Source of the DNA: Bryobacterales bacterium
Lineage (GTDB): Bacteria; Acidobacteriota; Terriglobia; Bryobacterales; Bryobacteraceae
NCBI GenBank assembly: GCA_016789785.1
Contig: JAEUQE010000235.1
Coordinates: 1-13,659 of the forward strand
Direction: 5' to 3'
Length of the DNA: 13,659 nt
The position numbers were made by a program, and so were the translations under genes. This document shows positions 1-13,659 of this stretch, piece by piece. Each line of letters starts with the position of its first letter. Within the stretch, counting starts at the first letter, position 1. The notes under the pieces were generated by a model. That model was given only the letters and a program-made list of their open reading frames with translations, ran no database searches and had not been told where the DNA came from.

Positions 1-944
1 ACGAATCGATCGATGAATATGTCCACTTGGCGGTCGACATAAGTTTCGGGCACCGGGAAATCATGCTCAGTCACCAAACGGTCAATGATGGCTTCCTTGG
101 CGACGCGTTGGGCCGCGACTTCCTTCTCCCGAAGCATGTTGGCGCGCACAGTGCTCTTTAGCTCTTCGAACGACTGGAAATCGCCGAGATCCTTTGCGAA
201 CTCATCGTTCAGTTCCGGAAGTTCTTTCTTCTGGATGACACGCAGAGTTACCCGGAAGTCCACGGTCTTGCCGGCCAGACGCTCTTCGCCGTAGGTGTCC
301 GGATAGCCGACCTGGATCACCTTGTCATCGCCGGGATTCATGCCCGGGATACCTTCGGAGAACTGCGCCATGGTGTCCGGTGCGCCGAGTTCGACCTGCA
401 TCCCCTGCGCCACCAGTGGTTTGCCCTCCAGGCCCGAAATGCTCTCGAGGTCAATCACCGCGACGTCACCCGTCTCAACCGGGCGAGGATCCACGTTCAC
501 ATAGTCGGCCTTCTGCTGGCGAATCTGCTCGATCCGGGCATCCAGTTCCGTATCGCTAATCTCGGGGCTGTTGTAGGGGACGGTAACGCCAGTGTATTCC
601 TTCAGCTCGATCACCGGGGCCACGTCGAACTGTGCCTTGAAGACAATGGGGTCGCCGTCGTTGGCCCACTGAATATCAGAGACATTGGGAGTGCCGACCA
701 CTTGAAGCTGCTCCGCCTCGGCACGCTCGCGGAAGAACTTGCCGAGCAGGTTGTCCAGAACCTCCTGGCGCATGTTCGCCCCGAACTGGCGCCGGATCAT
801 GGACAGTGGCGCCTTGCCTGGCCGGAATCCCGGCAGGTGGGCTTTCTTTTGGATGGACTCCGCCACCCGGTCCATTTCCTTCTGCACATCGTCAGCGGGA
901 ATGGTGATTTCCAGTTCGTGCTTGCAGCCTTCAATGAGTGCCAA
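1..944 (-). CDS. tig: Trigger factor, ribosome-associated chaperone and peptidyl-prolyl isomerase (C-terminus off window)
   Basis: About 314 residues are visible; the C-terminal part lies beyond the left edge. Trigger factor sits at the ribosome exit tunnel and shields nascent chains. The N-terminal ribosome-binding domain carries the family signature GFRPGKAP (about residues 39-46), followed by RRQFGANMRQEVLDNL. The FKBP-like isomerase domain follows (about 150-240), with GDVAVIDLESISG, EGIPGMNPGDDK and YGEERLAGKTVDFRVTL, and then the helical domain opening with KKELPELNDEFAKDLG. I chose the TTG start at 944 because AGGAG lies 9 nt upstream (954-958) and the resulting start, (M)ALIEGCKHELEITI, matches the family N-terminus. 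No in-frame ATG lies closer to this point. It begins 19 nt after the ahcY stop, so co-transcription with metK-ahcY is likely. Identification is firm. Confidence 0.96.
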   Translation of the reverse strand, partial: MALIEGCKHELEITIPADDVQKEMDRVAESIQKKAHLPGFRPGKAPLSMIRRQFGANMRQEVLDNLLGKFFRERAEAEQLQVVGTPNVSDIQWANDGDPIVFKAQFDVAPVIELKEYTGVTVPYNSPEISDTELDARIEQIRQQKADYVNVDPRPVETGDVAVIDLESISGLEGKPLVAQGMQVELGAPDTMAQFSEGIPGMNPGDDKVIQVGYPDTYGEERLAGKTVDFRVTLRVIQKKELPELNDEFAKDLGDFQSFEELKSTVRANMLREKEVAAQRVAKEAIIDRLVTEHDFPVPETYVDRQVDIFIDRF

Positions 945-963
945 TGTACCAATCTCCTGTGTC

Positions 964-2238
964 TCAAGTGCCTTCGGACCAGCTCGAGAGGTAGTTCTCC
1001 TGCTCGATACTTAAGCGGTCAATCCGTACGCCCATGGCTTCCAGCTTGAAGCGAGCCACGTTCCGGTCCAGTTCCTCTGGCACTGCGTAAACTTTGTTTT
1101 CGAGCGAGCTGTGATGCTTTACCAGGTACTCCACCGACAAAGCCTGATTGGAGAAACTCATGTCCATCACCGACGCGGGATGTCCTTCGCCGGAAGCGAG
1201 GTTGATCAGCCGGCCCTCCCCCAGCACATAAATCCGGCGTCCGTCGCGAAGAACGAACTCATCGACGAATTCGCGTGTCTGCCGCTTGGAGCCAGCCGCA
1301 CGGCCCAGCGCCTCCAGGTCGATCTCCACGTTGAAGTGTCCAGAGTTGCAGAGAATCGCCCCGTTCTTGAGCTTGTCGAAGTGGTCTCTCCCGATCACCG
1401 ATTTGTTTCCGGTCACCGTGACAAACACATCGCCGATGCCCGCCGCTTCGCTCATCGACATCACGCGATATCCGTCCATCAGCGCTTCGAGAGCCTTGAT
1501 GGGATCCACTTCGCAGACAATCACGTTCGCGCCGAGCCCGCGTGCCCGCATCGCCACGCCGCGCCCGCACCAGCCATAGCCCGCAATCACGACGTTCATC
1601 CCGGCGAGCAGGATGTTGGTCGCCCGCAGGATTCCATCCATCGTGCTTTGCCCAGTTCCGTAGCGATTGTCGAAGAGATGCTTCGTCATCGCATCATTGA
1701 CGGCGATCACCGGGTAGCGAAGCAGTTTCTCTCTCGCCATCGCCTTCAGCCGGATTACGCCCGTAGTGGTCTCTTCCGTGCTCCCCACAATGCTTGTGCC
1801 CAACTCTGGATGCCGGATCTGAAGCGCGTTCGCCAAACCGCCCCCATCGTCGAGGAGGATCTGCGGATCGATTTCCAGCGCCGACGCGACGTGAGCATGG
1901 TAGCGTTCATTGGTGTCGCCCCGGAGGGCGAATACGTTGAGCTTGTAGTCGCGCACAAGCGACGCCGCAACATCATCCTGAGTGGACAACGGATTGGGAG
2001 AGCAAAGCGCCAGCGACGCTCCACCATCCCTCAGCGTGATCATGAGGTTGGCGGTCTCGGTAGTGACATGGAGGCAAGCCGCAATCCGAATCCCCGCAAG
2101 CGGCTGTGTTTTGATGAACTGCTTGCGGATGTTCTGCAGGACCGGCATGGACTGGAAAGCCCATTCGATGCGCCGTTTCCCGGCATCCGCAAGGGAGATA
2201 TCCCGGATGTCCCAAGCGGCCTGCGCTCCCGTCGACAT
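964..2238 (-). CDS. ahcY: S-adenosylhomocysteinase, short (archaeal/Thermotoga-like) form
   Basis: 424 residues. It hydrolyses S-adenosyl-L-homocysteine to homocysteine and adenosine, removing the inhibitory product of methyltransferases. Expected catalytic residues are present: His57 in [10 protein letters not shown], Asp131, Glu156 in [10 protein letters not shown], and Lys186, Asp190 and Asn191 in [14 protein letters not shown]. These are almost at the human enzyme's numbering. The NAD-binding loop is GYGWCGRG (220-227), with an acidic ribose contact likely at Glu243 (VCEVDP). The C-terminus is YLSSWSEGT, as in archaeal and Thermotoga enzymes, and not the KPDHYRY-type tail of the long form. 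The ATG at 2238 lies 15 nt after the metK stop, and a weak purine-rich stretch (GGATAAGG) overlaps that stop, so translation is probably coupled. Grouping with metK fits a methyl-cycle operon. Confidence 0.97.
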
Positions 2239-2253
2239 GATTGTGCCGCGGCC

Positions 2254-3420
2254 TTATCCGCGAGCCGCTACGGCAACCGTTGCGTCGGCCTTCAATGCCT
2301 CGGCCTTGTCGGTCGCTTCCCAACTGAAGGTGTCTTCCGTGCGCCCGAAGTGGCCAAAGGCCGCCGTGGCGCGATAAATGGGGCGGCGCAGCTTCAAATG
2401 CTCAATGATGCCGCGTGGCGTGAGTGGGAAGTGGGCGCGAACCAACTCCGTCAGCCGTGTCTCTTCCACCTTGCCCGTGCCAAAGGTATTCACCATCACC
2501 GATACCGGCTCCGCCACGCCGATCGCGTAGGCCAACTGCACTTCACAACGGTCGGCAAGTCCGGCGGCCACGAGGTTCTTTGCAATGTAGCGGGCCATGT
2601 AGCACGCCGAGCGGTCCACCTTCGTCGGATCCTTGCCGGAGAACGCTCCTCCACCATGACGGCCCATGCCGCCGTAGGTGTCCACGATGATCTTGCGGCC
2701 CGTCAGTCCGGTGTCGCCATGCGGTCCGCCGATCACAAAGCGGCCCGTCGGGTTGATGTGATACTTGGTGTTCTCGTCCACCATGTTCGCCGGCAGAACC
2801 GGGTCAATGATGTGCTTACGAACCTTTTCGCGAAGCTCTTCGGTCGAGACGCTATCGTGGTGCTGGGTGCTGATCACAACCGCATCAATACGGACCGGCT
2901 TGTTGTCCACATACTCCACGCTCACCTGCGACTTGCCGTCAGGACGAAGGAAATCCAGAATCCCCTGACGGCGTGCGTCGCTCAGCCTGCGGCACAGCTT
3001 GTGCGCCAGTTCAACCGGCAGTGGCATCAATTCGGGAGTCTCATTCGAGGCATAGCCGAACATCAGTCCCTGGTCGCCCGCGCCTCCGGTGTCCACACCC
3101 ATCGCGATGTCCGGCGACTGGCTTTGAATCGTGTTCAGAATCCCGCAGGTCTTCGCATCGAAGCCGTACGCCGCATCGGTGTACCCGATGTCCGCGATTA
3201 CCTTGCGAGCAAGGGTGGGTACGTCGACGTACGTGTTGGTGGTAATTTCGCCGGAAACAACGCAGATGCCAGTGGTGACCAATACTTCACAAGCAACGCG
3301 TCCCGTGGGATCGTCGGCAAGAACCGCATCCAGAACCGCATCGGAAATCTGATCGGCCATCTTGTCGGGGTGACCCTCGGTCACCGACTCCGAAGTAAAG
3401 ATGTACTTCGTCTTTGCCAC
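2254..3420 (-). CDS. metK: S-adenosylmethionine synthetase (methionine adenosyltransferase)
   Basis: 388 residues, normal length for the bacterial family. It makes S-adenosylmethionine from methionine and ATP, releasing phosphate and pyrophosphate, in the cytoplasm. Signatures in order: [20 protein letters not shown] near the N-terminus, with the catalytic-loop His17 and metal-binding Asp19; the hexapeptide GAGDQG (113-118); [20 protein letters not shown] (225-243); and the phosphate-binding [16 protein letters not shown] (256-271). The start codon is GTG at 3420, preceded by a strong Shine-Dalgarno GGAGG 7 nt upstream. It is the first gene of the probable metK-ahcY-tig operon, behind its own promoter and a leader of about 135 nt. 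The last codon is 15 nt from ahcY. Identification is firm. Confidence 0.98.
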
Positions 3421-3658: not shown

Positions 3659-4519
3659 TTAGCGGACGCGCTTTCTGGCTCGCCAAGCCAGAGCGGCCAA
3701 CCCGGCTGTGATCACGCCGATTGTGCCTGGCTCCGGTGCGTCTCCACCACCACCGCTTCCGCCTCCTCCACCATTGCCGTTCGAACCCTGTGCAAGCAGG
3801 TTGAGGAAGAATTGCTGATTGGTCATACCCGGGTTTCCGAACCCGATATTGCCCAAGTTTTGGTTCGAGGCGAAGTTGTCGCCGAACACGTAGATCTTGC
3901 CAAGATTGAAGCTATCCACGCGCAGTGCGCTTCCCAAGAGGTTAATTGCCAGCGAGCTACCACCGCTCACACCCAGCGGATTGAACATCGAAATCGAGAA
4001 GCCTGCCAGATTTCCAACCGCGGCATCGGAACCAGCCAGCGCTGCCGCCGTCAACTGAAAAGTGATACTCGGATCAAGAAGCTGCGATGTGCTGACCTGC
4101 AGCGAATTCCCCGATGCGCCGGGACCGAAAGCGCTCAGAATGCTGTTTACCAGACCAATGGAGGAACCGGACGACTGCCCGTCGACGAACAGCATCAGGA
4201 TACCGCCGCCATTCACCCAATTGATGAGAGCATTGATTTCGGAAACGCCACCTACGGGATTCGAAATGATGAAGTGCGAATTGTTGGCGAGAGACTGCGC
4301 GGTGATCTGTTCCGGTGTTTCGATTGTGTGGCCATGACCGGAGGCCAAAGCCGCGCCATAGATCGTGCTAAAGTTACCCGAACCCGCCCAAATGCTTCCC
4401 GGATTGTTGCCGCTAAACTGTCCGACTACCGCAGCCGGCAGGCTGGACGCAAGCAACAAGCCCCCGAGCGCAACCAGCAGGCTCACCCTGCCGCTGCCAA
4501 CTCCTGGACGCTTGAACAT
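3659..4519 (-). CDS. Secreted PEP-CTERM sorting-domain protein
   Basis: 286 residues from the ATG at 4519, which has GGAGGA 8 nt upstream; an open frame continues upstream but lacks such a site. Residues 1-30 form a signal peptide: basic MFKRP, hydrophobic LLVALGGLLLAS, then LPAA. The body (about 31-245) is rich in Gly, Ser, Asn and Ala. Its NSHFIISNPVGG and INWVNGGGILMLFVDG segments look like alternating strands of an alpha/beta fold such as ThuA- or GATase-like domains; this is a weak resemblance. A Gly-rich linker (246-260) leads to the C-terminal sorting signal: PEPGT (262-266), a hydrophobic stretch (267-279) and a basic tail RARKRVR. In known systems an exosortase recognises this tail and the protein reaches the surface or exopolysaccharide. 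No exosortase is in the window. The substrate or partner is unknown. Confidence 0.85.
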   Translation of the reverse strand: MFKRPGVGSGRVSLLVALGGLLLASSLPAAVVGQFSGNNPGSIWAGSGNFSTIYGAALASGHGHTIETPEQITAQSLANNSHFIISNPVGGVSEINALINWVNGGGILMLFVDGQSSGSSIGLVNSILSAFGPGASGNSLQVSTSQLLDPSITFQLTAAALAGSDAAVGNLAGFSISMFNPLGVSGGSSLAINLLGSALRVDSFNLGKIYVFGDNFASNQNLGNIGFGNPGMTNQQFFLNLLAQGSNGNGGGGGSGGGGDAPEPGTIGVITAGLAALAWRARKRVR

Positions 4520-4600
4520 CGAAAGTATCCTCCGAACTCTTCGAGTTCTATCATTTCCCAGGCTCCCAGGTGGACACACCGGGTGGGCCTGACTAAAAGG

Positions 4601-4628
4601 AGTATAGCACGAATTTCCCATTGTGCAA
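4601..4628 (-). promoter_or_regulatory. Sigma70-like promoter for the PEP-CTERM gene
   Basis: On the minus strand, TTGCAC (4623-4628) and TATACT (4601-4606) are 16 nt apart. The -10 box is preceded by TG plus one base (TGCTATACT), an extended -10 arrangement. A start near 4594 would give a leader of about 75 nt before the ATG at 4519. Confidence 0.6.
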
Positions 4629-4694
4629 CGGAAAGATGGTACCAGGGTAATGTGCTGTCAGATCTATCGATTAGGTACGGTCGAACCAGGGATC

Positions 4695-4733
4695 GGAATG
4701 CCCCCGTACGGGGGGATCGGACTAGGGGATTCC
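4695..4733. repeat. Inverted-repeat cluster in the KAS III / PEP-CTERM gap
   Basis: The gap between the KAS III stop and the PEP-CTERM start (4520-4802, 283 nt) holds no gene. Its centre has a perfect 14-nt palindrome, CCCCCGTACGGGGG (4701-4714). An alternative 9-bp stem pairs GGAAT(g)CCCC (4695-4704) with GGGGATTCC (4725-4733), with one bulge. Closer to KAS III lies a short GC hairpin, CCGCC/GGCGG (4779-4783 with 4790-4794). None is followed by a T-run on the minus strand, so these are not convincing intrinsic terminators. They could be a 3' end structure, a protein-binding site, or chance in GC-rich DNA. Confidence 0.5.
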
Positions 4734-4802
4734 CGGTAGGATTATCGATCGATCTCGGGGGGCAATCGCACCGCGGGACCGCCCGATCCGGCGGCGGCAC
4801 GA

Positions 4803-5735
4803 TCAGATCCCCTGGGTGAGGATAGCGCCCCAGTGGAAGCCCGCGCCGAATGCGGCAAAGCAAACCAGCCCCTCGGCGGGAAAACCGTTTTCAGCCAGCC
4901 ACTCCGAAGCGGCGATCAGCATCGACGCCGACGAAGTGTTGCCGTAACGGGCAATGTTCGAGAAGAACTTTCCCCGTTCGACCCCAATCGCATCGGCAAT
5001 GCGGTCAATCAGGTTCTGGTTCGCCTGATGCATCACGAACCGGTCCACTTGACTCGCCTCAACCCCTTGTTTTTCAAGTACTTGCTGGATCGCGCGAGGG
5101 ATCTTCCGGGATGCCTGTAGGATCACGGTACGCCCGTTCATCTGAATCGGCGAGTTGAACTCCAGCCGCAGATCTTCCGAGAATGAGCCGTCGCAGGAAA
5201 GCTGCGTGTGGCAGATCCGCGCTGCCCCCTTCTTGGGATGGATCAGACAGGCCCCCGCGCCGTCGCCGAACAGCATCGCGACACCCGATTCCACCGGTTC
5301 GGTAACCACCACCGGGGAGAGGACTTCCGCCGCCACCACCAGCACCGGGCCATAGCTATCAGCCATCTCATTGGCAAGCACCATCGCTGCCAGGGCGCCC
5401 GCGCTTGCCATGGGGAGGTCAATCGCCCCGACCTCAGTCAGGCCAAGCCGCGCCGCCACGGATGCCGCCGGTCCCGGGAACCGCCGCGGAGCACTCCCGC
5501 TCGACACCAGGATCAGCCCCAACTCGGACGCGGATACCCCGCTCTTTGCCAGGCAATCCTCCGCTGCGCGAACGGCAAGGTCCACCAGGGTCTCCCCCTC
5601 GGCCACCCAGCGACGCTCCTCGATACCGGACACATTCCGAATCCACTCGGAAGTCTTCCCGATCAATGCGCCAATCTCATCGTTGGTCACGATTCGAGAC
5701 GGAAGCGCTGCTCCAAATGCTGAAATCCAGGCCAC
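4803..5735 (-). CDS. FabH-like KAS III family protein with Ser in place of the nucleophilic Cys
   Basis: 310 residues from the GTG at 5735, 4 nt after the carrier-protein stop. The start matches the FabH N-terminus (VAWISAFGAALPSRIVTNDEIG). A TTG at 5786 would add 17 residues and overlap the carrier gene. Thiolase-fold features are intact: EWIRNVSGIEER, LFGDGAGA, MHQAN with His236, and YGNTSSAS with Asn266. The nucleophile segment reads DLPMASAGAL where E. coli FabH has DVAAACAGF, so Cys112 is replaced by Ser111 (codon AGC at 5403-5405). Aligned by eye, the CoA-contacting Arg36 and Arg151 become Val35 and Ser150. FabH normally condenses acetyl-CoA with malonyl-ACP. KAS III relatives such as DpsC (Ser nucleophile), CerJ and ChlB3 act or can act as acyltransferases. 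I infer an acyl-transfer partner of the adjacent carrier; an inactive or purely structural role is possible. Confidence 0.88.
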   Translation of the reverse strand: MAWISAFGAALPSRIVTNDEIGALIGKTSEWIRNVSGIEERRWVAEGETLVDLAVRAAEDCLAKSGVSASELGLILVSSGSAPRRFPGPAASVAARLGLTEVGAIDLPMASAGALAAMVLANEMADSYGPVLVVAAEVLSPVVVTEPVESGVAMLFGDGAGACLIHPKKGAARICHTQLSCDGSFSEDLRLEFNSPIQMNGRTVILQASRKIPRAIQQVLEKQGVEASQVDRFVMHQANQNLIDRIADAIGVERGKFFSNIARYGNTSSASMLIAASEWLAENGFPAEGLVCFAAFGAGFHWGAILTQGI

Positions 5736-5739
5736 GTTA

Positions 5740-5973
5740 TCAGTTCCGGCCTTCCAGGTATTCCTCGATCCGCTCGATCGAGTCAAACTTGCGCGGATTC
5801 AGGTCGGCATCCGGGATGGTTATCCCAAACGCTTCTTCCAGCGCACCCACCATGTCCGGCAATGCAAACGAATCCAGCAGACCCGAGTCGAAAAGTGACT
5901 CGTCCGGCGCCGGCTGGAGATCCTTCTTGGATACCTTCCGCACGATTTCAATGATTTTCGCCCGTTTGTCCAT
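5740..5973 (-). CDS. Acyl carrier protein, DltC-like
   Basis: 77 residues from the ATG at 5973. A TTG at 5997 in the same frame would add 8 residues; the ATG has an AGGA-type site 5 nt upstream and gives the usual carrier length. The phosphopantetheine attachment site is Ser35 in SGLLDSFALPD. Helix III (FDSIERIEEYL) and the overall four-helix pattern fit the family. LLDSF and the following EEAFGITIP resemble DltC (D-alanyl carrier of teichoic acid modification) more than the DSLDTVEL of fatty-acid AcpP. It overlaps the end of the upstream SGNH gene by 26 nt and is followed by the KAS III gene after 4 nt, so the three are translated as a block. The likely role is to carry an acyl group for the KAS III protein and the MBOAT encoded nearby. 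The acyl group is unknown. Identification as a carrier protein is firm; the Dlt-like role is inferred. Confidence 0.92.
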   Translation of the reverse strand: MDKRAKIIEIVRKVSKKDLQPAPDESLFDSGLLDSFALPDMVGALEEAFGITIPDADLNPRKFDSIERIEEYLEGRN

Positions 5974-7327
5974 TCCGTTCCTGTAAGTCCTGTCCAATCA
6001 ACTCAGAGCGCACCTTCACGAAGGTCCCATAGTGTTCCATCAGATCTTGAAAAACTGCGCCGCCCAGTAGACGGTAGCCGGCGGCGGTGAAGTGCACGTA
6101 ATCTGTCTGGGCGAGACCGGCGGATACCCACCGCGGCATCGAACCCTTCCCGCCCATTTTCGCGCGCATGTCCCAAAAAGCACAACCCGTACCCAGCGCC
6201 GCTTCCCTTTGCGCCTCCACAATCCGGTCCACCCGGTCGTAGGTTTGCCACCCGCCCCGAGTGCGAATACTGCGGTCCGGCGGCCCGGTAACGAGAATCG
6301 ACGCCGTCGGCACCATCTTCCGGAACCGGTGAATCAACGATGCAAACATGTCCCGGTAGTTCTCGCGGCTCCAGTCCGAGTTGCCCGCCTCATTCGTTCC
6401 GTACGCCAGTACAATCAGAGCCGGATTCCGTTTCCCAATGTGCTCCGCCAGCAATTTCTCTTCCCAGTTGAAAACAATGGACGCCTGCGCCCCATTGATT
6501 CCCAGCGTCTCGTAGGTCACCCCGCGTCCCTGCTCGGCAACCCAGCCGAACAGCCGTACCGGCGCCGAATCGGTGGTCTCCAGATGGAACCGGTGCGGCC
6601 CCGGAGTCGCCGTGTACCGGAAGTAGCCCGGCCCTGTTTCTCCATCGGTCGCGATGCGCTCCACGAATATGCCGTTGTCGTAGAAACTCAGGGTTCCTCC
6701 GCCCGGCTGGCGCAGAAAAAAGATTTCCAGGGAGTCGCACAGCACTTCCAGACTCACTGACTCCCGCGGCCGCCGCGCCGTGATGCTGACACCGCCCAAT
6801 CCGTAAAGGCCATCGCCACTTCGGCCGACCAGCCCATCCGAATACCAGCCATCCGACGAATAGCTGCGCAGATCCAGGCGCCGGAACGAGTTCCATGGCC
6901 GCCCCGCGTGAGTCCACCCGCTGCCCCCATCGCCGAAGCGATTCTGGAATAAGGCTCGCAGGAAGCCAGTCCATTCATCGGCGGCCGTGTGCGAATCCCC
7001 GTAGTGGAGGATGTGTATCCGGTTGTCGCCCGTCCGGTTCTGATTCCGGTACAACTGTTCAAAGAAAGGCACCAGCGCCGCGACGTTCTCCATGGGAGTC
7101 TGCCGCGCGAGTTCCAGCACTTCCTCCACCGTATAGGCGGGCACCGGAGTGGGCGCGAGTCTGGTCCGGGAAGGCCGCTGTGCGGTCTTCGGCGTTGACT
7201 TCGCCGCCTTTTTCGCTACTGGTTTCCTGGTTGTGGTTTTCTTGGCTGCGGGGAGCCCGCTTGCCACCAGCAGGCCCAGAACGACAGGCAACACCAAGCT
7301 CATGCCGAGTTTGGTCATGGAAGCCAT
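5948..7327 (-). CDS. Exported SGNH/GDSL-family protein (second of a tandem pair)
   Basis: 459 residues. An N-terminal signal or anchor (about 5-28, ending SGLPAA) is followed by a Lys/Ala/Thr/Pro-rich segment (29-62), a likely extracytoplasmic spacer. The SGNH core has block I ILHYGDSHTAADEW with nucleophile Ser112, block III LAYGTNEAGN with Asn312, and block V TDYVHFTAAGYRLLG with Asp409 and His412. Between blocks I and III, about residues 150-280, lies an extra region rich in predicted strands. The SGNH fold covers esterases and acyltransferases such as AlgX, AlgJ, PatB and DltD. With an MBOAT upstream, transfer or removal of O-acyl groups on a cell-surface or extracellular glycan is likely. 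The ATG at 7327 is 3 nt after the preceding stop; a second ATG at 7318 is possible. It shares DGLYGLGGVS and LRQPGGG with its neighbour, so the two are paralogues. Confidence 0.88.
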   Translation of the reverse strand: MASMTKLGMSLVLPVVLGLLVASGLPAAKKTTTRKPVAKKAAKSTPKTAQRPSRTRLAPTPVPAYTVEEVLELARQTPMENVAALVPFFEQLYRNQNRTGDNRIHILHYGDSHTAADEWTGFLRALFQNRFGDGGSGWTHAGRPWNSFRRLDLRSYSSDGWYSDGLVGRSGDGLYGLGGVSITARRPRESVSLEVLCDSLEIFFLRQPGGGTLSFYDNGIFVERIATDGETGPGYFRYTATPGPHRFHLETTDSAPVRLFGWVAEQGRGVTYETLGINGAQASIVFNWEEKLLAEHIGKRNPALIVLAYGTNEAGNSDWSRENYRDMFASLIHRFRKMVPTASILVTGPPDRSIRTRGGWQTYDRVDRIVEAQREAALGTGCAFWDMRAKMGGKGSMPRWVSAGLAQTDYVHFTAAGYRLLGGAVFQDLMEHYGTFVKVRSELIGQDLQERNGQTGENH

Positions 7328-7330
7328 CGC

Positions 7331-8713
7331 CTACTCGCCACCCTGCCCGGAGGGGACAGCGCTCGAGGCGATACGCCTCGCCTGGATCAGACGCAGTTTG
7401 TATTTGGTGTAGCCATCCACCAGCGCTTGATAGAGCAGGCCGCCGACGATCTTGGCCCCCGCGGGCATGGGATGAATGAAGTCCGCGCCCACCAGACGCG
7501 GCTCCGCCTCATACCACCGGCCCATGGTGCCCACACCGCCCATGGCCGCAAACGTATTGAAGAACGCACTGGCTGTCTCCGATGCCACACGCTGCTGAAT
7601 CGCAACCAGCCGCGGGATGGTCGGCACCGTTCCAATCTCGCCGCCTGCCATGCGCTGGCCCCGGTCCATCGGGCTCATCAGCAGAATCGACGCGTCCGGA
7701 GCCGCCGCGCGGAGCCGCCGCACCACCTCCTTCAACTCCCTGGCCGAAGCCGTATCCACGAATTGCGGATACACGCTCTCGTTGGTGCCATAGTTGATGA
7801 TCACCAGATCCGGACGGTAGTGCTGCAGTTGCTCCCTCCAATGCTCTTCCGAAATCAAACGCGCCAGCACCGAGACATAGGCGCCGTTGACTCCCAAGCT
7901 GTTGTAGACGACACCGGGCGTCTTCCGTTCCAGCCGTGCCCCAAAGATCCGCACCGGCCCGCCCATGGCGCGAACCACAAAGTCGCGATGCGACGGATCG
8001 ACCTTGAATTCCTCGAATCCGGACATCAGCTTATCAGAATGCGTGTTCACGAAGCCGGCGGACTGCCCGCCCGCCTCCACCCGGAACTGCCCGCCGCCTG
8101 GTTGCCGCAGATAGGCCACTTCGAGCGATGTGTGTCCGCCGCCCTTCAGTTGAATCGACGCCGTCGCTCCGGCCGCGCCTCGAAAGCTGACGCCGCCCAG
8201 CCCGAACAGCCCGTCCTTGACCGAACTCTGATTCACCGGATCAATGAACCAGCCACCGCCGCGAATCTCCAGGCCGTGATGCGCATACCACGCCCACGGC
8301 TTCGCAATCAGGAAGAACCCGTGCCCGGCATCCCCGAACCGCTTCTGCAGCAGCGTGCGAACATCGCTTGTGATCATGTCGGCCGTGGTGGGGGAATCGC
8401 CATAGTGCAGGATCCGCACCACGCCTTCCTTGCTCTCGGCGCGATGCAGTGCCCGGTAGAAACGGTCCAGATCGTGGCCTTCGTCCTCAATCGGATGCTT
8501 CTGCTGCCGCATCGCGTCGGTATCAGGACGAAGACGCTGTTGCTCCTCCACTTCGGGGCTCGCCGAACGTGTCCGGTTGACGAAGTCCAGCAGTGCCGGC
8601 ACGGTTCGCCAGTCCATCACCTTGTAGTCCTTCAACACCGGCGCCAGATCCGTCAGCAGCAGAATGCCGCAGAAGGTGGCGAGTGTCAGGAAAGGCTTGG
8701 TTGGCCAGAGCAT
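7331..8713 (-). CDS. Exported SGNH/GDSL-family protein (first of a tandem pair)
   Basis: 460 residues. A hydrophobic N-terminal segment (about 7-27) without a clear cleavage site suggests a membrane anchor with the rest outside the cytoplasm. SGNH motifs: ILHYGDSPTTADM with nucleophile Ser107, INYGTNES with Asn311, and DFIHPMPAGAKIVG with Asp411 and His414. Residues about 140-285 between blocks I and III form an additional region with DGLFGLGGVS and YLRQPGGG, both shared with the next gene's product. The ATG lies 3 nt after the MBOAT stop, with no clear ribosome-binding site, so translation is probably coupled to the MBOAT. By analogy with AlgI plus AlgJ/AlgX, or DltB plus DltD, it likely passes acyl groups from the membrane acyltransferase to an external acceptor. 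A hydrolytic role is also possible. Confidence 0.88.
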   Translation of the reverse strand: MLWPTKPFLTLATFCGILLLTDLAPVLKDYKVMDWRTVPALLDFVNRTRSASPEVEEQQRLRPDTDAMRQQKHPIEDEGHDLDRFYRALHRAESKEGVVRILHYGDSPTTADMITSDVRTLLQKRFGDAGHGFFLIAKPWAWYAHHGLEIRGGGWFIDPVNQSSVKDGLFGLGGVSFRGAAGATASIQLKGGGHTSLEVAYLRQPGGGQFRVEAGGQSAGFVNTHSDKLMSGFEEFKVDPSHRDFVVRAMGGPVRIFGARLERKTPGVVYNSLGVNGAYVSVLARLISEEHWREQLQHYRPDLVIINYGTNESVYPQFVDTASARELKEVVRRLRAAAPDASILLMSPMDRGQRMAGGEIGTVPTIPRLVAIQQRVASETASAFFNTFAAMGGVGTMGRWYEAEPRLVGADFIHPMPAGAKIVGGLLYQALVDGYTKYKLRLIQARRIASSAVPSGQGGE

Positions 8714-8716
8714 GGT

Positions 8717-10123
8717 TCAGAATTTGGTGTAGATGAACGGCGCCACATCTTTCGCCGCCACATAGTGAATCGCCAGTAGCAGCAGTGCCATCGCGGCTGC
8801 CTGCACAAAGAACGGCGAACGGACAAACAGGTGGTCCGCCCGCTTGAACCAGGCGTCCGGCAGATAGTGGCCCAACGTCGCGATGGTCATGATAATCACA
8901 ATCGGCAGGGATATGTTCGCCACTGCCGCGGTCCCGGAGAAGATCCTGCCGAGCACCTCCATGGCATTCCCCAGACTCGATGCCCGGAAGAATACCCAGG
9001 CCAGACACACAAACTGACACGTGACGAAGATCCGCGTCCCACGTGCCCACCATGCCGGGTTCGGCTTGGCATCTCCCCGCAACGTCTGCAGGTAGCGTGT
9101 CAACGCAAGCGCTGATCCGTGCAGAAGACCCCAGATGACGAAGGTCCAACTCGGGCCGTGCCACAGACCGCCAATCACCATCGTAATGACAAGATTGGCG
9201 TACGTAAACACCTTCCACTTCGATCGCAGCCCCGGAAGCGAAAAATAGAGGTAATCCCTTAGCCAATTCGATAGAGTGATATGCCAGCGCCGCCAGAAAT
9301 CCGCGATGTTTTCCGCCGCATAGGGCATCTTGAAGTTCTCCGGCAGTTTCAGTCCCAGCAGCAGCGCCGACCCGATGGCAATGTCCGTGTAGCCCGAAAA
9401 ATCAAAGTACAACTGCAGTGCGTAGGCGTAGACTCCGATCAGCACTTCCGTCCCCGAGTAGAGATTCGGAAAGTCGAAGATGCGGTTCACGAAATTCGTG
9501 CCGAGGTAGTCCGCCACCAGCATCTTCTTCATCAGCCCCAGCCCGATCCGGAACACCGCGCGCCCGCCGTCCTCCGCGCTCACGTTCTTTGGTTTCTCTA
9601 ACTGAGGAAGCAGCGCGGCGACTCGCGTGATCGGCCCCGCGAGCGTGGTGGGAAAGAAACTGACTGCCGAGAGATACGCCAGATAGCTCGGCGTCGCCTT
9701 GGCATCCTTGCGGTAGACGTCGAACGTGTAGGTCAGTGATTGGAAGCAGTAAAACGAGATGCCGAGTGGAAAGCTCCAGTGCCATTCGGGCCGCTCGACT
9801 CCCGCCAGAAACGCATAGTTGTCCAGTAGGAATGGCATGTACTTCAACGTCGCCAGCATCCCTACGTTTAGAGCGAGGCTCAGCCCCAACAGCGCCCTCC
9901 GCTTCCACTGCGCTTTCGAGATCGAAATCCCGAAACCGATCAGAAAGTCCAGCGTGGATGCCGCCGGAATCAGGAACAGATAGAAGACGTCCCACTTCGC
10001 GTAGAAGAAGTAGTTCGCGAACAGGATCAGCGAAAGGCAGAGCGCCCTTCTCCGCGCCAGGGGCCAGTAGAGAAGAAAAACGGCAACCAGAAAAATGAAG
10101 TAGGCCGACGAGGACAGCAGCAT
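8717..10123 (-). CDS. MBOAT-family membrane O-acyltransferase (AlgI/DltB type)
   Basis: 468 residues with roughly 10-12 membrane segments. Family features in order: N-terminal SSAYFIFLVAVFLLYWPL; FPLGISFYCFQSLTYTFDVY (118-137); YFDFSGYTDIAIG (239-251); ENIADFWRRWHITLSNWLRD (271-290) with His281; and GGLWHGPSWTFVIWGLLHG (318-336) with His322 and His336, the usual active-site pair. The tail PFIYTKF resembles the PFIYFQF end of AlgI proteins. AlgI and DltB take acyl groups from a cytoplasmic donor and move them to the outer face for O-acylation. Here the donor could be the carrier protein encoded three genes downstream. The ATG at 10123 has no clear Shine-Dalgarno sequence and no alternative start just upstream. 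This is the first gene of the five-gene cassette. Fold and family are firm; the substrate is unknown. Confidence 0.94.
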   Translation of the reverse strand: MLLSSSAYFIFLVAVFLLYWPLARRRALCLSLILFANYFFYAKWDVFYLFLIPAASTLDFLIGFGISISKAQWKRRALLGLSLALNVGMLATLKYMPFLLDNYAFLAGVERPEWHWSFPLGISFYCFQSLTYTFDVYRKDAKATPSYLAYLSAVSFFPTTLAGPITRVAALLPQLEKPKNVSAEDGGRAVFRIGLGLMKKMLVADYLGTNFVNRIFDFPNLYSGTEVLIGVYAYALQLYFDFSGYTDIAIGSALLLGLKLPENFKMPYAAENIADFWRRWHITLSNWLRDYLYFSLPGLRSKWKVFTYANLVITMVIGGLWHGPSWTFVIWGLLHGSALALTRYLQTLRGDAKPNPAWWARGTRIFVTCQFVCLAWVFFRASSLGNAMEVLGRIFSGTAAVANISLPIVIIMTIATLGHYLPDAWFKRADHLFVRSPFFVQAAAMALLLLAIHYVAAKDVAPFIYTKF

Positions 10124-10203: not shown

Positions 10204-13200
10204 CTACCAGCGCAGCCGTACTTGCGCCTGAATGAACCGGTTGCGGGTCTCCGTCTGCGCTGTCACCCGGCCGAAGTCGGTGGAGAACGGATTCGCATTT
10301 GGAGACGCGAACTGTGTGCGGTTCTGGACGTTCAGCGCGTCCAACCGGAACTGGAGTGTGAACGACTCCCGGATCTGGAAGGACCGCGAGAGATTTGCGT
10401 TCCACTGATTCAGGCCATCGGCGCGCACCCCATTGAGCCGCGTGGGAAACACGCGCCGGTGAAACGCCGTTGGCCCGTTGTTGGCGACACGCTCAAATCC
10501 ATCGGTGCTGAACCACCGTGTCAGCGTGCGGCCCTCCGTCGTGATGCCCGACGGATCATCACGATAGAACAGGTTGCCCCAGTTGATCAGCGGACCAGGC
10601 TGGAACTCGAATGTCGCCGCCGCCTGAAATCCGCCCACCACCTTACCCAATGCTCCGCGTTGCAGGAAGGGCCTGCCTTTGCCGAACGGCAATTGATAGA
10701 TGCCCGTAGCCGCAATGCGATGCGGCCGGCCGTCGTTGCTCTCGCGCCATGCCGGCGTGACGTCGAACTCATTGAAATAGAAATCCGCCTCCTGCGTGGA
10801 GAGCCGCGTGTAGCCGAAGTTCAGATCGAAGCCTTGCGAGAATCGCTTTGTCACCTGCAACTCCATGCTGTGCGTGCGCGCGCGTCCGTCGGGCACGGTC
10901 GTGTTCGTTAGCCCGTTGATATGCGGGAATGCGCGTAGCAACTGCTGTTTCCGGATCGTCGGCGACGTGAAGAAACCCTGCGTGCTCAGATCCTGATAGA
11001 GCACGGGATTGCTCGTGCGCAGCGCGCTGAAGTTGGACAGCAGAAACGGATTGGTGACGTTGGCGTTGAGATTGTTGAACCCGGCATTGTCCCGAGTCTG
11101 TCCCGACGCCCAATACTGCTCCGGTAGGAACGACAGTTGACGGCCCAGATCAATGCGGCCGGAATCCGATCCCACATACGCGACATCGAAAAGCCAGTCC
11201 TTTCCCACCTGCCGCTGGATTCCGATGCGCCACCGCTGCTGACGCGCATGCCGGCGATCGAAGTCGTTGAAGCCCCAACCGCGCCCTGCTCGCGACATCA
11301 GGCCCAGCGAATCGCGCAGAGGCTCATCGAAACGTGTGCCGTCCGATCGGATCGGGAACGGATCGGTCAGCGGCGAGATGCCGCGCCGTGGATCACCCGC
11401 CAGCCAGTTGACTCCGAAGTCGTTCGTCAATACCGTGGTTGTGGACCGCGAAAAGCCGGTCTGGTCGGGGCCCTCATTCAACACGTTGATCGTGTCGTAG
11501 AACATGCCGTAACCACCGCGAATTACTGTGTTCTTGGCGATCTGCCAGGCGGCGGCGATCCGCGGCATTGGCATCCATTCGTTACGCCACATACGGCGCG
11601 TGCGGCCTTCTACGCCCGGATAGACGGATCCTCCGCGTACCTCGAATTGCGAGGCCGCCAACTCGGGAATCGGACTGCGCGCATAGGCCGCCTGAGCCGC
11701 GGCCGTGATCGGCAGCGTCGGCGATCCATCGAACCACCCGATCACGCGGTTGTAGCGCTCGTTCGGACCCAACTCGTACTCCAGGCGGAATCCCAGGGTG
11801 ACGGTGAGTTTCGGTGTAACCCGCCATGTGTCCTGCGCGAACCATGCGTAGTAGGGATTGAGCAGCGCGTAGGTGTCCGCGCGGGCGATCTGCGCACTGT
11901 TGGGAAGGCCCATCATGAAGGCAGCCCAGCTATGTGCGAGGTTTCCAGCCGGAACCAGGGTATCGTCGTTGCGCCGTGTCCAGTTGTTGCCGAAGCCGAA
12001 CGCGCCCGTGGTTGCGCCTCCGCCGCCGCCAGTCCGGTACTGGCCACGCGCTTCCATCCCCGCACGCAAGCTGTGATCGCCGCGAATATGCGACACATCG
12101 CCGCGCGCGCTCAGGGAACGGAAGTGGGTCAGCGTCGGGAATCCGCGGCTCACGGTTTCGTATCCCCCGAAACTCATTTGCGGCAGGATGGTGAGGTCGC
12201 CGGCACGCTGATCGAGATAGGCCGGCAAGCCCACATCCGCGGCTTTGTAGTCATTGGCGCGGTTGAACGCGCTACCCTCGCGGTAGTTGTTCACCGAAAC
12301 ATTTACATCCAGAATTGTTGCGGGCCCCATGGTGTACACCCAATCACCCGAACCATTCCAGTTCGTGCGATTTTGCTTCGCCGAGTGCAGACCACGCAGC
12401 GTATCAAATGTCCAATCCAGCGCATCGTTGATCCAGTCGTTGTAGCTCCACCGCACGAAGAAACGATGGCGGTCGCTCAGGTTGTAGTCGACGCGATTGG
12501 TGTAGGCCACGTAGTCGCGCAGCAGCGGCGTGGTCACGGCAAGGAAGTTGTTGAGCGGCTCGCGCTGCGGACCCGGATCGTTGTTCGGAATGGGCATCAG
12601 ATCGCGATAGAAGTTGTAGGCCGGGTTCACCACGCGCGACGCCGGGAGAATATTTCCGGGGATGGGGTCGCGAATGAAGTTGCGAGGGCGAGCCGGATCC
12701 ACGCGTACGCTCAGGGGATCGTGGAGTTGATAGAGCGTCGCGTTCGCGCCGAGATGCCGCGAGAAATCCCCCTTGCGATCATCCAGCGTGGGAATGGTGC
12801 GGTTCAACCGGCTCGGCAGATCGGACACCTTGTCGATGTTGCCCTGATACGAAAAGAAGAAGAACAGCTTGTTGCGCCCGTTGAAGACTTTCGGAATGAT
12901 CACCGGACCACCCATCGTCAGCACCCAGTTGTTCGATCTTCCAGGCTCCTGCTTGTCGGTATTACGGAGCTGATTCGCCAGTGCGCTGTTCCCTGCGGCG
13001 TCGGCTGCCGCGATGCGCTGATAGTAGAGCTGCCTTGTGAAGAACGGCGTCGCATGCCACCGCTGCTGCCAGTGTTGCCAGGTCGCGGTGCCGTGATACT
13101 GATTCGTGCCGGACCGCGTCATCATCGAAAGCGACACACCTGACGAGTGGCCAATCGACGCGTCGAAGCCCGATGTCTCCACCTTGATCTCGGATACCGT

Positions 13201-13659
13201 GTCCACTGCGGGCAGGAATGCCGCGCGCCGCCCCGCGCCGTTGTTCGGTGCGCCATCAAGCGTGTACTCATTGCCGCCCACGCGCCCGTTCACTCCGAAA
13301 TCCGATGCCCCGGCGTTCGAGTGCGGCCCCAGATAGTCGTTCACTCCGCTGGTCTGCACGCCTGGAGTCAGCTTTGCAAGCACCGTCGCGTTGTTGGCGA
13401 TCACTGGCAGATCCAGCACCTGGCGGTTATCCATGACACGCCCGGATGACACCGCGCTGGTGTCGATCAACGGAGCAACCTCGGTGACATTGACCGACTC
13501 GGTCACGCCCCCGAGCTCCAGTGTGATGTCGATATCGAGCCGCGAGCTGATCTGCAACACAATGCCCGATCGCACGGCCCGCTTGAACCCCGTCATCTCC
13601 GTGGTGAGCCGGTAGTCGCCGGGCAGGAGAAAGTTGGCTTCGTAGTAGCCGGTATCGTT
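10204..13659 (-). CDS. TonB-dependent receptor, CarboxypepD_reg / Oar-like family (N-terminus off window)
   Basis: 1151 residues are visible, to the TAG at 10204; the frame is open to the right edge, so the signal peptide and early domain are missing. The visible part opens inside a CarboxypepD_reg-type beta-sandwich (YYEANFLLPGDYRLTTEMTG), followed by ELGGVTESVNVTEVAPLIDT. A plug-like region follows with LDLPVIANNATVLAKLTPGV and DFGVNGRVGGNEYTLDGAPNN. The rest is a long aromatic-rich beta-barrel with repeated strand patterns (for example WRVTPKLTVTLGFRLEYELG and QRWRIGIQRQVGKDWLFDVA). It ends with the outer-membrane signature FIQAQVRLRW, with a terminal aromatic residue. Proteins of this type are numerous in Acidobacteriota genomes and are usually linked to uptake of glycans or other large substrates, or to surface functions; the ligand is not evident. 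It is on the same strand as the acylation cassette, 80 nt upstream of it. Confidence 0.93.
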   Translation of the reverse strand, partial: NDTGYYEANFLLPGDYRLTTEMTGFKRAVRSGIVLQISSRLDIDITLELGGVTESVNVTEVAPLIDTSAVSSGRVMDNRQVLDLPVIANNATVLAKLTPGVQTSGVNDYLGPHSNAGASDFGVNGRVGGNEYTLDGAPNNGAGRRAAFLPAVDTVSEIKVETSGFDASIGHSSGVSLSMMTRSGTNQYHGTATWQHWQQRWHATPFFTRQLYYQRIAAADAAGNSALANQLRNTDKQEPGRSNNWVLTMGGPVIIPKVFNGRNKLFFFFSYQGNIDKVSDLPSRLNRTIPTLDDRKGDFSRHLGANATLYQLHDPLSVRVDPARPRNFIRDPIPGNILPASRVVNPAYNFYRDLMPIPNNDPGPQREPLNNFLAVTTPLLRDYVAYTNRVDYNLSDRHRFFVRWSYNDWINDALDWTFDTLRGLHSAKQNRTNWNGSGDWVYTMGPATILDVNVSVNNYREGSAFNRANDYKAADVGLPAYLDQRAGDLTILPQMSFGGYETVSRGFPTLTHFRSLSARGDVSHIRGDHSLRAGMEARGQYRTGGGGGATTGAFGFGNNWTRRNDDTLVPAGNLAHSWAAFMMGLPNSAQIARADTYALLNPYYAWFAQDTWRVTPKLTVTLGFRLEYELGPNERYNRVIGWFDGSPTLPITAAAQAAYARSPIPELAASQFEVRGGSVYPGVEGRTRRMWRNEWMPMPRIAAAWQIAKNTVIRGGYGMFYDTINVLNEGPDQTGFSRSTTTVLTNDFGVNWLAGDPRRGISPLTDPFPIRSDGTRFDEPLRDSLGLMSRAGRGWGFNDFDRRHARQQRWRIGIQRQVGKDWLFDVAYVGSDSGRIDLGRQLSFLPEQYWASGQTRDNAGFNNLNANVTNPFLLSNFSALRTSNPVLYQDLSTQGFFTSPTIRKQQLLRAFPHINGLTNTTVPDGRARTHSMELQVTKRFSQGFDLNFGYTRLSTQEADFYFNEFDVTPAWRESNDGRPHRIAATGIYQLPFGKGRPFLQRGALGKVVGGFQAAATFEFQPGPLINWGNLFYRDDPSGITTEGRTLTRWFSTDGFERVANNGPTAFHRRVFPTRLNGVRADGLNQWNANLSRSFQIRESFTLQFRLDALNVQNRTQFASPNANPFSTDFGRVTAQTETRNRFIQAQVRLRW

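Follow-up and report, generated by a model that had tools for sequence, protein, structure and literature searches.

The DNA considered here is a 13,659-nucleotide (nt) stretch of contig JAEUQE010000235.1 (assembly GCA_016789785.1) from a Bryobacterales bacterium, hereafter the window. On its minus strand lie five closely packed genes encoding, in order, a membrane-bound O-acyltransferase (MBOAT), two SGNH proteins (SGNH1 and SGNH2), a dedicated acyl carrier protein (ACP) and a protein with the fold of ketoacyl-ACP synthase III (KAS III). The genes are separated by gaps of 3, 3 and 4 nt, with an overlap of 26 nt between SGNH2 and ACP. This layout had been reported in a first-pass annotation of the DNA and was matched exactly when starts and stops were re-read; its five family assignments are likewise each backed by a Pfam match over cut-off (Table 1). 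Among named proteins, those closest to the window's belong to Bryobacteraceae and other Acidobacteriota.

By virtue of its parts, the cassette belongs among the MBOAT-SGNH systems, where it forms a real and conserved combination for which no description was found: it is linked to a carrier, linked to a KAS III protein, and equipped with a tyrosine shuttle built into the MBOAT. The first-pass annotation knew of no system with this parts list. In the open-licence literature searched, as far as its texts were available, neither the MBOAT-SGNH-ACP-KAS III set nor the pairing of an Alg/Pat-type MBOAT with a Dlt-type carrier and a KAS III protein was found described.

Table 1. Cassette genes, their diagnostic residues and flanking genes, numbered from the first letter of the window
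Feature	Position	Strand	Length	Family match (Pfam)	Remarks
MBOAT membrane acyltransferase	8717..10123	-	468 aa	PF03062, 97 bits	His281 and His322 conserved
MBOAT tail shuttle motif FxYxxF	F463-x-Y465-x-x-F468				C-terminus of MBOAT
MBOAT RDYLYFSLPGLR loop					Corresponds in position to helix HC of DltB
SGNH1	7331..8713	-	460 aa	Lipase_GDSL_2, 70.3 bits	Catalytic/block residues Ser107, Gly274, Asn311, Asp411, His414
SGNH2	5948..7327	-	459 aa	Lipase_GDSL_2, 59.3 bits	Catalytic/block residues Ser112, Gly276, Asn312, Asp409, His412
ACP	5740..5973	-	77 aa from ATG	PP-binding PF00550, 39.8 bits	DSF site, Ser35
KAS III, FabH fold	4803..5735	-	310 aa	ACP_syn_III_C, 89.7 bits; ACP_syn_III, 49.1 bits	GTG start
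Outer membrane beta-barrel gene	10204..13659	-		PF25183, 443.5 bits	Cut by the window end
PEP-CTERM protein gene	3659..4621	-		PF07589	Downstream of KAS III
S-adenosylhomocysteine hydrolase, methionine adenosyltransferase and trigger factor genes	964..3420 and 3..944	-

A gene set conserved in two classes of Acidobacteriota

Relatives were collected by scanning public genomes with an alignment of KAS III, and the best 80 of 527 were followed to their loci, which are therefore loci found by way of KAS III; the wider surveys described below were confined to one phylum. All five genes occur in the same order in 47 of the 80 loci, among them one whose MBOAT is cut by a contig end (L010) and one with 3.2 kb between SGNH1 and SGNH2 (L041). 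In a further 18, a contig ends within 4.7 kb upstream of KAS III: ten of these retain SGNH2 upstream of ACP, two start at KAS III itself, and six show ACP and KAS III only, with another gene upstream in at least three cases (L044, L051 and L080). The other 15 loci differ. Nine have ACP and KAS III without an SGNH gene upstream, two have SGNH1-SGNH2-ACP-KAS III with no MBOAT found, two have SGNH2-ACP-KAS III, and the last two, L009 and L067, are taken up below. ACP adjoins KAS III on its upstream side in 76 of the 80 loci.

For the nine loci with a bare ACP-KAS III pair, an MBOAT was sought in seven genomes (all but those of L035 and L040), and in six of the seven an orthologue with 58-63% identity adjoins SGNH1 elsewhere in the genome, followed by SGNH2 in five and by a contig end in one. 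In the seventh, L038 (8745-12593), the genes after ACP and KAS III encode a different MBOAT and a member of the AlgX family; ACP and KAS III may here have been co-opted by another export pair.

Co-occurrence across whole genomes points the same way. Genome G025 belongs to the Acidobacteriaceae, within the class Terriglobia. Among 151 genomes of this class, the serine-type KAS III is present in 28 (E-value up to 1e-85) and SGNH1 in 26 (E-value up to 1e-70), with both in 25 against 4.8 expected (Fisher p 4e-24, kinship ignored). The two genes are sometimes distant, lying about 170 kb apart in G470 and on different contigs in G014, G018, G313, G486, G492 and G526. In a draw from the whole phylum, with up to five candidates scored per genome, 13 of 396 genomes matched at an E-value below 1e-95.

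Two weaker matches in that draw led to a relative of KAS III with a cysteine nucleophile, and from there to the Blastocatellia (the class of G089), where the five parts stand in another order: SGNH2-MBOAT-SGNH1-ACP-KAS III. Of 98 genomes in the class, 6 carry the KAS III (E-value up to 1e-90) and 9 carry SGNH1 (E-value up to 1e-60), all 6 falling within the 9 (Fisher p 8e-8). Once the nine loci had been read, KAS III was found in eight of these genomes, the contig of the ninth ending just past ACP, and ACP lies beside SGNH1, at most 0.6 kb away, in all nine. The full order is seen in L156, L180, L181 and L184, as well as in L185 with KAS III cut by the contig end; L179 begins at MBOAT, L186 ends past ACP, and L187 holds the first four genes with KAS III on another contig. 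The nucleophile is cysteine in the 120 proteins nearest to the Blastocatellia KAS III. Between the two classes, then, gene order and KAS III nucleophile vary and the parts stay the same.

With co-occurrence in two classes, chance neighbourhood is ruled out as an explanation, and the cassette is a conserved gene set. The first-pass annotation had proposed that the five genes form one cassette and had named the scattering of its genes in related genomes as the finding that would overturn it. That objection, when checked, did not hold: the proposal is borne out by the ordered loci, the co-occurrence among the 151 genomes and the parts in a second class.

Two kinds of loci deserve separate mention. 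Variant sets in L144 (6953-13777) and L155 have two SGNH2-like genes besides MBOAT and SGNH1. The ACP and KAS III of L144 run towards the variant set, and a glycosyltransferase gene lies just upstream. All titles in the KAS III scan name Acidobacteriota except that of L071, a contig assembled from a metagenome; its title reads Bordetella parapertussis, and it carries ACP and KAS III. As the same genome contains a cassette MBOAT (63% identity) and falls within the acidobacterial class draw, the Bordetella label is probably wrong.

Features of the acyltransferase, carrier, KAS III and SGNH proteins

The MBOAT combines traits of two known types. Its closing FxYxxF motif is present in the window and in 46 of 46 cassette-type MBOATs of the scan (a count that excludes the cut L010 and L019, whose frame was lost in gene calling, and that keeps L038 apart), as well as in 8 of 8 from the Blastocatellia; His322 is retained in all 47 cassette-type MBOATs, the window included. 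A C-terminal FxYxxF with a conserved histidine is shared with PatA- and AlgI-type systems. In PatA the tail tyrosine is auto-acetylated, and PatB is fed by an acetylated peptide of the tail (PMC12148441). At E-values up to 0.001, DltB is the sole solved sequence match (E-value 9e-28), and the window protein scores 184.6 of the 375 bits required by the DltB equivalog model TIGR04091.

The best solved matches of the ACP are DltC proteins (E-value 2e-8), although it also scores below the cut-off of the DltC family models. Of the 76 ACPs found, 56 were aligned after 20 were dropped by length and a gene-call filter, and Asp34, Ser35, Phe36 and Asp40 are identical in all 56. In DltC, Glu40 forms salt bridges to DltB (PMC11035591). 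A DltC-like carrier alongside an MBOAT with an Alg/Pat-type tail agrees with the earlier suggestion that the cassette blends Alg and Dlt parts.

One stretch of the MBOAT may be informative on carrier use. DltC docks at helix HC of DltB (PMC11035591). In the loop at this place, the sequence GG[NS]R occurs in none of the 47 cassette-type MBOATs and in 19 of 20 carrier-unlinked MBOATs from the same genomes (out of 27 such sites, 20 were retrieved and read over 7-11 kb). FxYxxF ends all 20 of these as well. There are exceptions to the loop contrast: the unlinked L172 lacks GG[NS]R, and two carrier-linked MBOATs, L038 (GANR) and L184 (GGLR), lie near the unlinked type. In a tree, the cassette MBOATs form one clade (support 100/99), to which the variants L144, L155 and L156 stand closest, and L141, L142 and L172 fall in another clade. 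Because of this single clade and the three exceptions, the contrast may reflect descent; it is suggestive, a lead on carrier use and not proof of it. The proteins tested next to the alternative MBOATs matched no Pfam family in L141, L142 and L143, and in L172 there was a DUF1574 match under cut-off.

The KAS III of the window has the triad Ser111-His236-Asn266, with Ser111 at the nucleophile position. Serine occupies this position in the window and in all 80 scan loci, where the Cys-His-Asn triad of FabH was not encountered. The serine type described in the first-pass annotation is thus upheld for these loci and does not extend to the whole system, the Blastocatellia sets using cysteine. At the position of FabH Arg151, where the alignment is unsure, arginine stands in 37 of 81 serine-type proteins (the window included) and in 0 of 120 of the cysteine type. 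A role in fatty-acid initiation is unlikely: a second KAS III occurs in 24 of 26 genomes (of cysteine type in the four looked at; G012 and G018 gave a single match), so the cassette protein is usually not the only KAS III of its genome.

Precedents for transfer by KAS III proteins come from polyketide pathways. The serine KAS III DpsC, with a Ser-His-Asp triad, acylates itself and its ACP (PMC12664062), and the KAS III-like transferase ChlB3, with Cys-His-Asp, brings 6-methylsalicylyl to an ACP (PMC9573744). Both share the KAS III fold with the cassette protein, and DpsC shares its serine nucleophile. In contrast to either, the cassette triad is Ser-His-Asn, the protein is nearest FabH in sequence and fold, and its partner is an envelope acyltransferase instead of a polyketide pathway. 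DpsC was not among the best 60 of 71 sequence matches nor among the 50 structure matches listed for KAS III, which excludes nothing.

Turning to the SGNH proteins, the SGNH1 model shares both the fold of Ape1 and its beta insert, which matches carbohydrate-binding modules, and begins with a hydrophobic helix (residues 5-23) that by eye may be a membrane anchor. SGNH2 is closest to Ape1 by sequence, and its N-terminus is hydrophobic and signal-like by eye. Both retain the block II glycine (Gly274 in 46 of 46 SGNH1 and Gly276 in 58 of 58 SGNH2 aligned), and the Ser/Asn change of PatB was not seen in either. The description of the pair as two SGNH transferases is therefore not supported as it was given in the first-pass annotation, both being nearest Ape1 and both keeping the glycine lost in PatB; the label stands unproven, judged by sequence for SGNH2 and by the predicted model for SGNH1.

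A proposed acylation route and its alternatives

The analysis establishes which genes make up the set and how far they are conserved, along with catalytic residues, the tail motif and folds predicted for KAS III and SGNH1. On balance, the cassette appears to be a self-contained envelope acylation machine fed by its carrier, in which KAS III charges ACP and the MBOAT takes the acyl group from it. We infer every transfer step, the direction of KAS III (charging versus unloading), the acyl group and the glycan. KAS III would load its serine (cysteine in Blastocatellia) with a short acyl group drawn from some common thioester of the cytoplasm, and would pass the group on to the phosphopantetheine that the dedicated ACP bears. 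This carrier would then dock on the cytoplasmic side of the MBOAT, whose histidine would move the acyl group to Tyr465 of its own FxYxxF tail at the outer face. From the tyrosine, one of the Ape1-like SGNH proteins would carry the group to a glycan; SGNH1, which adjoins the MBOAT, is the most likely candidate. The other could serve as a second transferase or as an esterase that edits the modification.

Several findings sit uneasily with this proposal. The likeness to DltB is not special, since it is equalled by L143 (E-value 8e-31), an MBOAT outside the cassette clade, and the hydrophobic residues through which DltB helix HC contacts DltC are not kept. KAS III has a Ser-His-Asn triad rather than the Ser-His-Asp of DpsC, and its nearest folds are ordinary FabH. 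The position of FabH Arg36 is never arginine (0 of 81 serine-type proteins including the window, 0 of 120 cysteine-type) and that of Arg249 is asparagine in 78 of 81 and 119 of 120, respectively, so that acyl-coenzyme A (acyl-CoA) is a doubtful donor on sequence grounds. Both SGNH proteins look like esterases, their closest solved protein being the esterase Ape1. Gene content also provides counterexamples. L009 has a cassette without ACP, with no room for one between SGNH2 and KAS III (8968-9001) and none elsewhere in the 18.9 kb locus, and L067 has KAS III alone, with no ACP in its locus. G524 carries SGNH1 without a serine-type KAS III; conversely, G437, G449 and G533 carry KAS III without SGNH1, the ACP-KAS III pair lying near a different MBOAT. 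In the Blastocatellia, L182 (genome G537) shows a broken SGNH1 (4652-5527, with an in-frame stop), an ACP and a cysteine-type KAS III with no MBOAT in 14 kb, and is possibly a decaying or split set.

Among the alternatives, KAS III could be a condensing or decarboxylating enzyme that produces the group to be carried, such as acetyl-ACP derived from malonyl-ACP, or some special acyl-ACP, for export by the MBOAT and SGNH proteins. This is unlikely, yet it is the strongest of the competing explanations. The exchange of cysteine for serine is expected to weaken condensation and keep transfer, with DpsC as precedent (PMC12664062), and the neighbourhood of the cassette has no constant chain-building partner, the largest cluster of flanking genes (unannotated) covering 9 of at most 47 loci. 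An arrangement closer to Dlt, in which an unlinked adenylating enzyme charges ACP and KAS III proofreads or unloads it, seems improbable. It would fit the DltC-like carrier and the weaker AMP-binding matches to the DltA model TIGR01734 that occur in all 26 relatives' genomes. Nevertheless, the best of these reaches 284.9 of 559.85 bits and none passes the cut-off, which 2 of 14 control genomes do pass; many of those with higher scores lie within open reading frames of great length, reminiscent of nonribosomal peptide synthetases. No AMP-binding family was found among 29 neighbour proteins scanned or among the window genes scanned, and ACP travels with KAS III as noted above, though the loci were found by KAS III. 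The first-pass claim that a DltA-type ligase is missing accordingly stands for enzymes over cut-off and for the surroundings of the cassette, and is qualified by the weaker relatives in every genome.

It is also conceivable, if slightly less probable still, that the MBOAT takes its acyl group straight from acyl-CoA, as PatA does, and that ACP and KAS III serve a separate lipid or starter-unit function and are merely co-transcribed. The PatA/AlgI-type tail and the number of genomes in which ACP-KAS III lies apart from the MBOAT speak for this. Against it, both halves are kept when split, in six of the seven genomes searched and in G313, G470, G486 and G492 of the class draw. In the Blastocatellia the ACP stands beside SGNH1 in every locus read; in G315 it stays with MBOAT and SGNH1 with KAS III on another contig. 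Because this split runs opposite to those of the first class, the ACP is linked to both halves. Moreover, none of the 20 other MBOATs has an ACP or KAS III detectable by cassette profiles within the 7-11 kb read.

The carrier-fed reading can also be set beside known systems. The Dlt system (DltA-DltB-DltC-DltD-DltX) likewise joins an MBOAT, a dedicated carrier and an SGNH protein. The cassette differs in having KAS III and Ape1-like SGNH proteins, no DltA over cut-off, an MBOAT and a carrier under the Dlt family cut-offs, and a shuttle motif on the MBOAT itself in place of a separate DltX, for which there is no room between the five genes, the place where it was sought. Set against PatA-PatB-Ape1, which O-acetylates peptidoglycan, and the AlgI and WssH systems, the cassette has no PatB-like change in block II of either SGNH protein; PatA uses acetyl-CoA, whereas the cassette is carrier-linked in both classes. 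A 2025 account sorts MBOAT-SGNH systems into two groups: Dlt has a carrier together with a separate DltX, and all others use acyl-CoA and have a tail that is fused. It states that pathways other than Dlt lack a carrier protein (PMC12148441). The joint presence of a carrier and a fused tail breaks this division, and MBOAT features that select acyl-ACP over acyl-CoA become testable. The cassette may, with somewhat less assurance than the carrier-fed route as such, represent a third feed for MBOAT-SGNH export, different from the direct acyl-CoA use of PatA and AlgI and from the ligase-charged carrier of Dlt: KAS III would draw the acyl group out of the fatty-acid pool and load it onto a dedicated carrier, which would work in one machine with the built-in tyrosine shuttle. 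An acyl group other than acetyl, drawn from acyl-ACP, may then yield a surface glycan decoration not yet described. If so, acylation of a surface polymer would be tied to fatty-acid metabolism, and the KAS III fold would gain a job outside lipid and polyketide synthesis. The envelopes of these soil and water bacteria have been little studied.

Neighbouring genes

A role in defence was considered and set aside, as PADLOC gave no match for the four proteins submitted (all but ACP). The outer membrane beta-barrel gene ends 80 nt upstream of the MBOAT start and, like the PEP-CTERM gene, might be read as a pointer to the acylated polymer; neither is evidence of this kind, since no flank is widely common, and the neighbours do not name the polymer. 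Further downstream in the window lie the S-adenosylhomocysteine hydrolase, methionine adenosyltransferase and trigger factor genes, and a MetK-like gene, identified by eye, is found downstream of the cassette in L002 and L004 as well.

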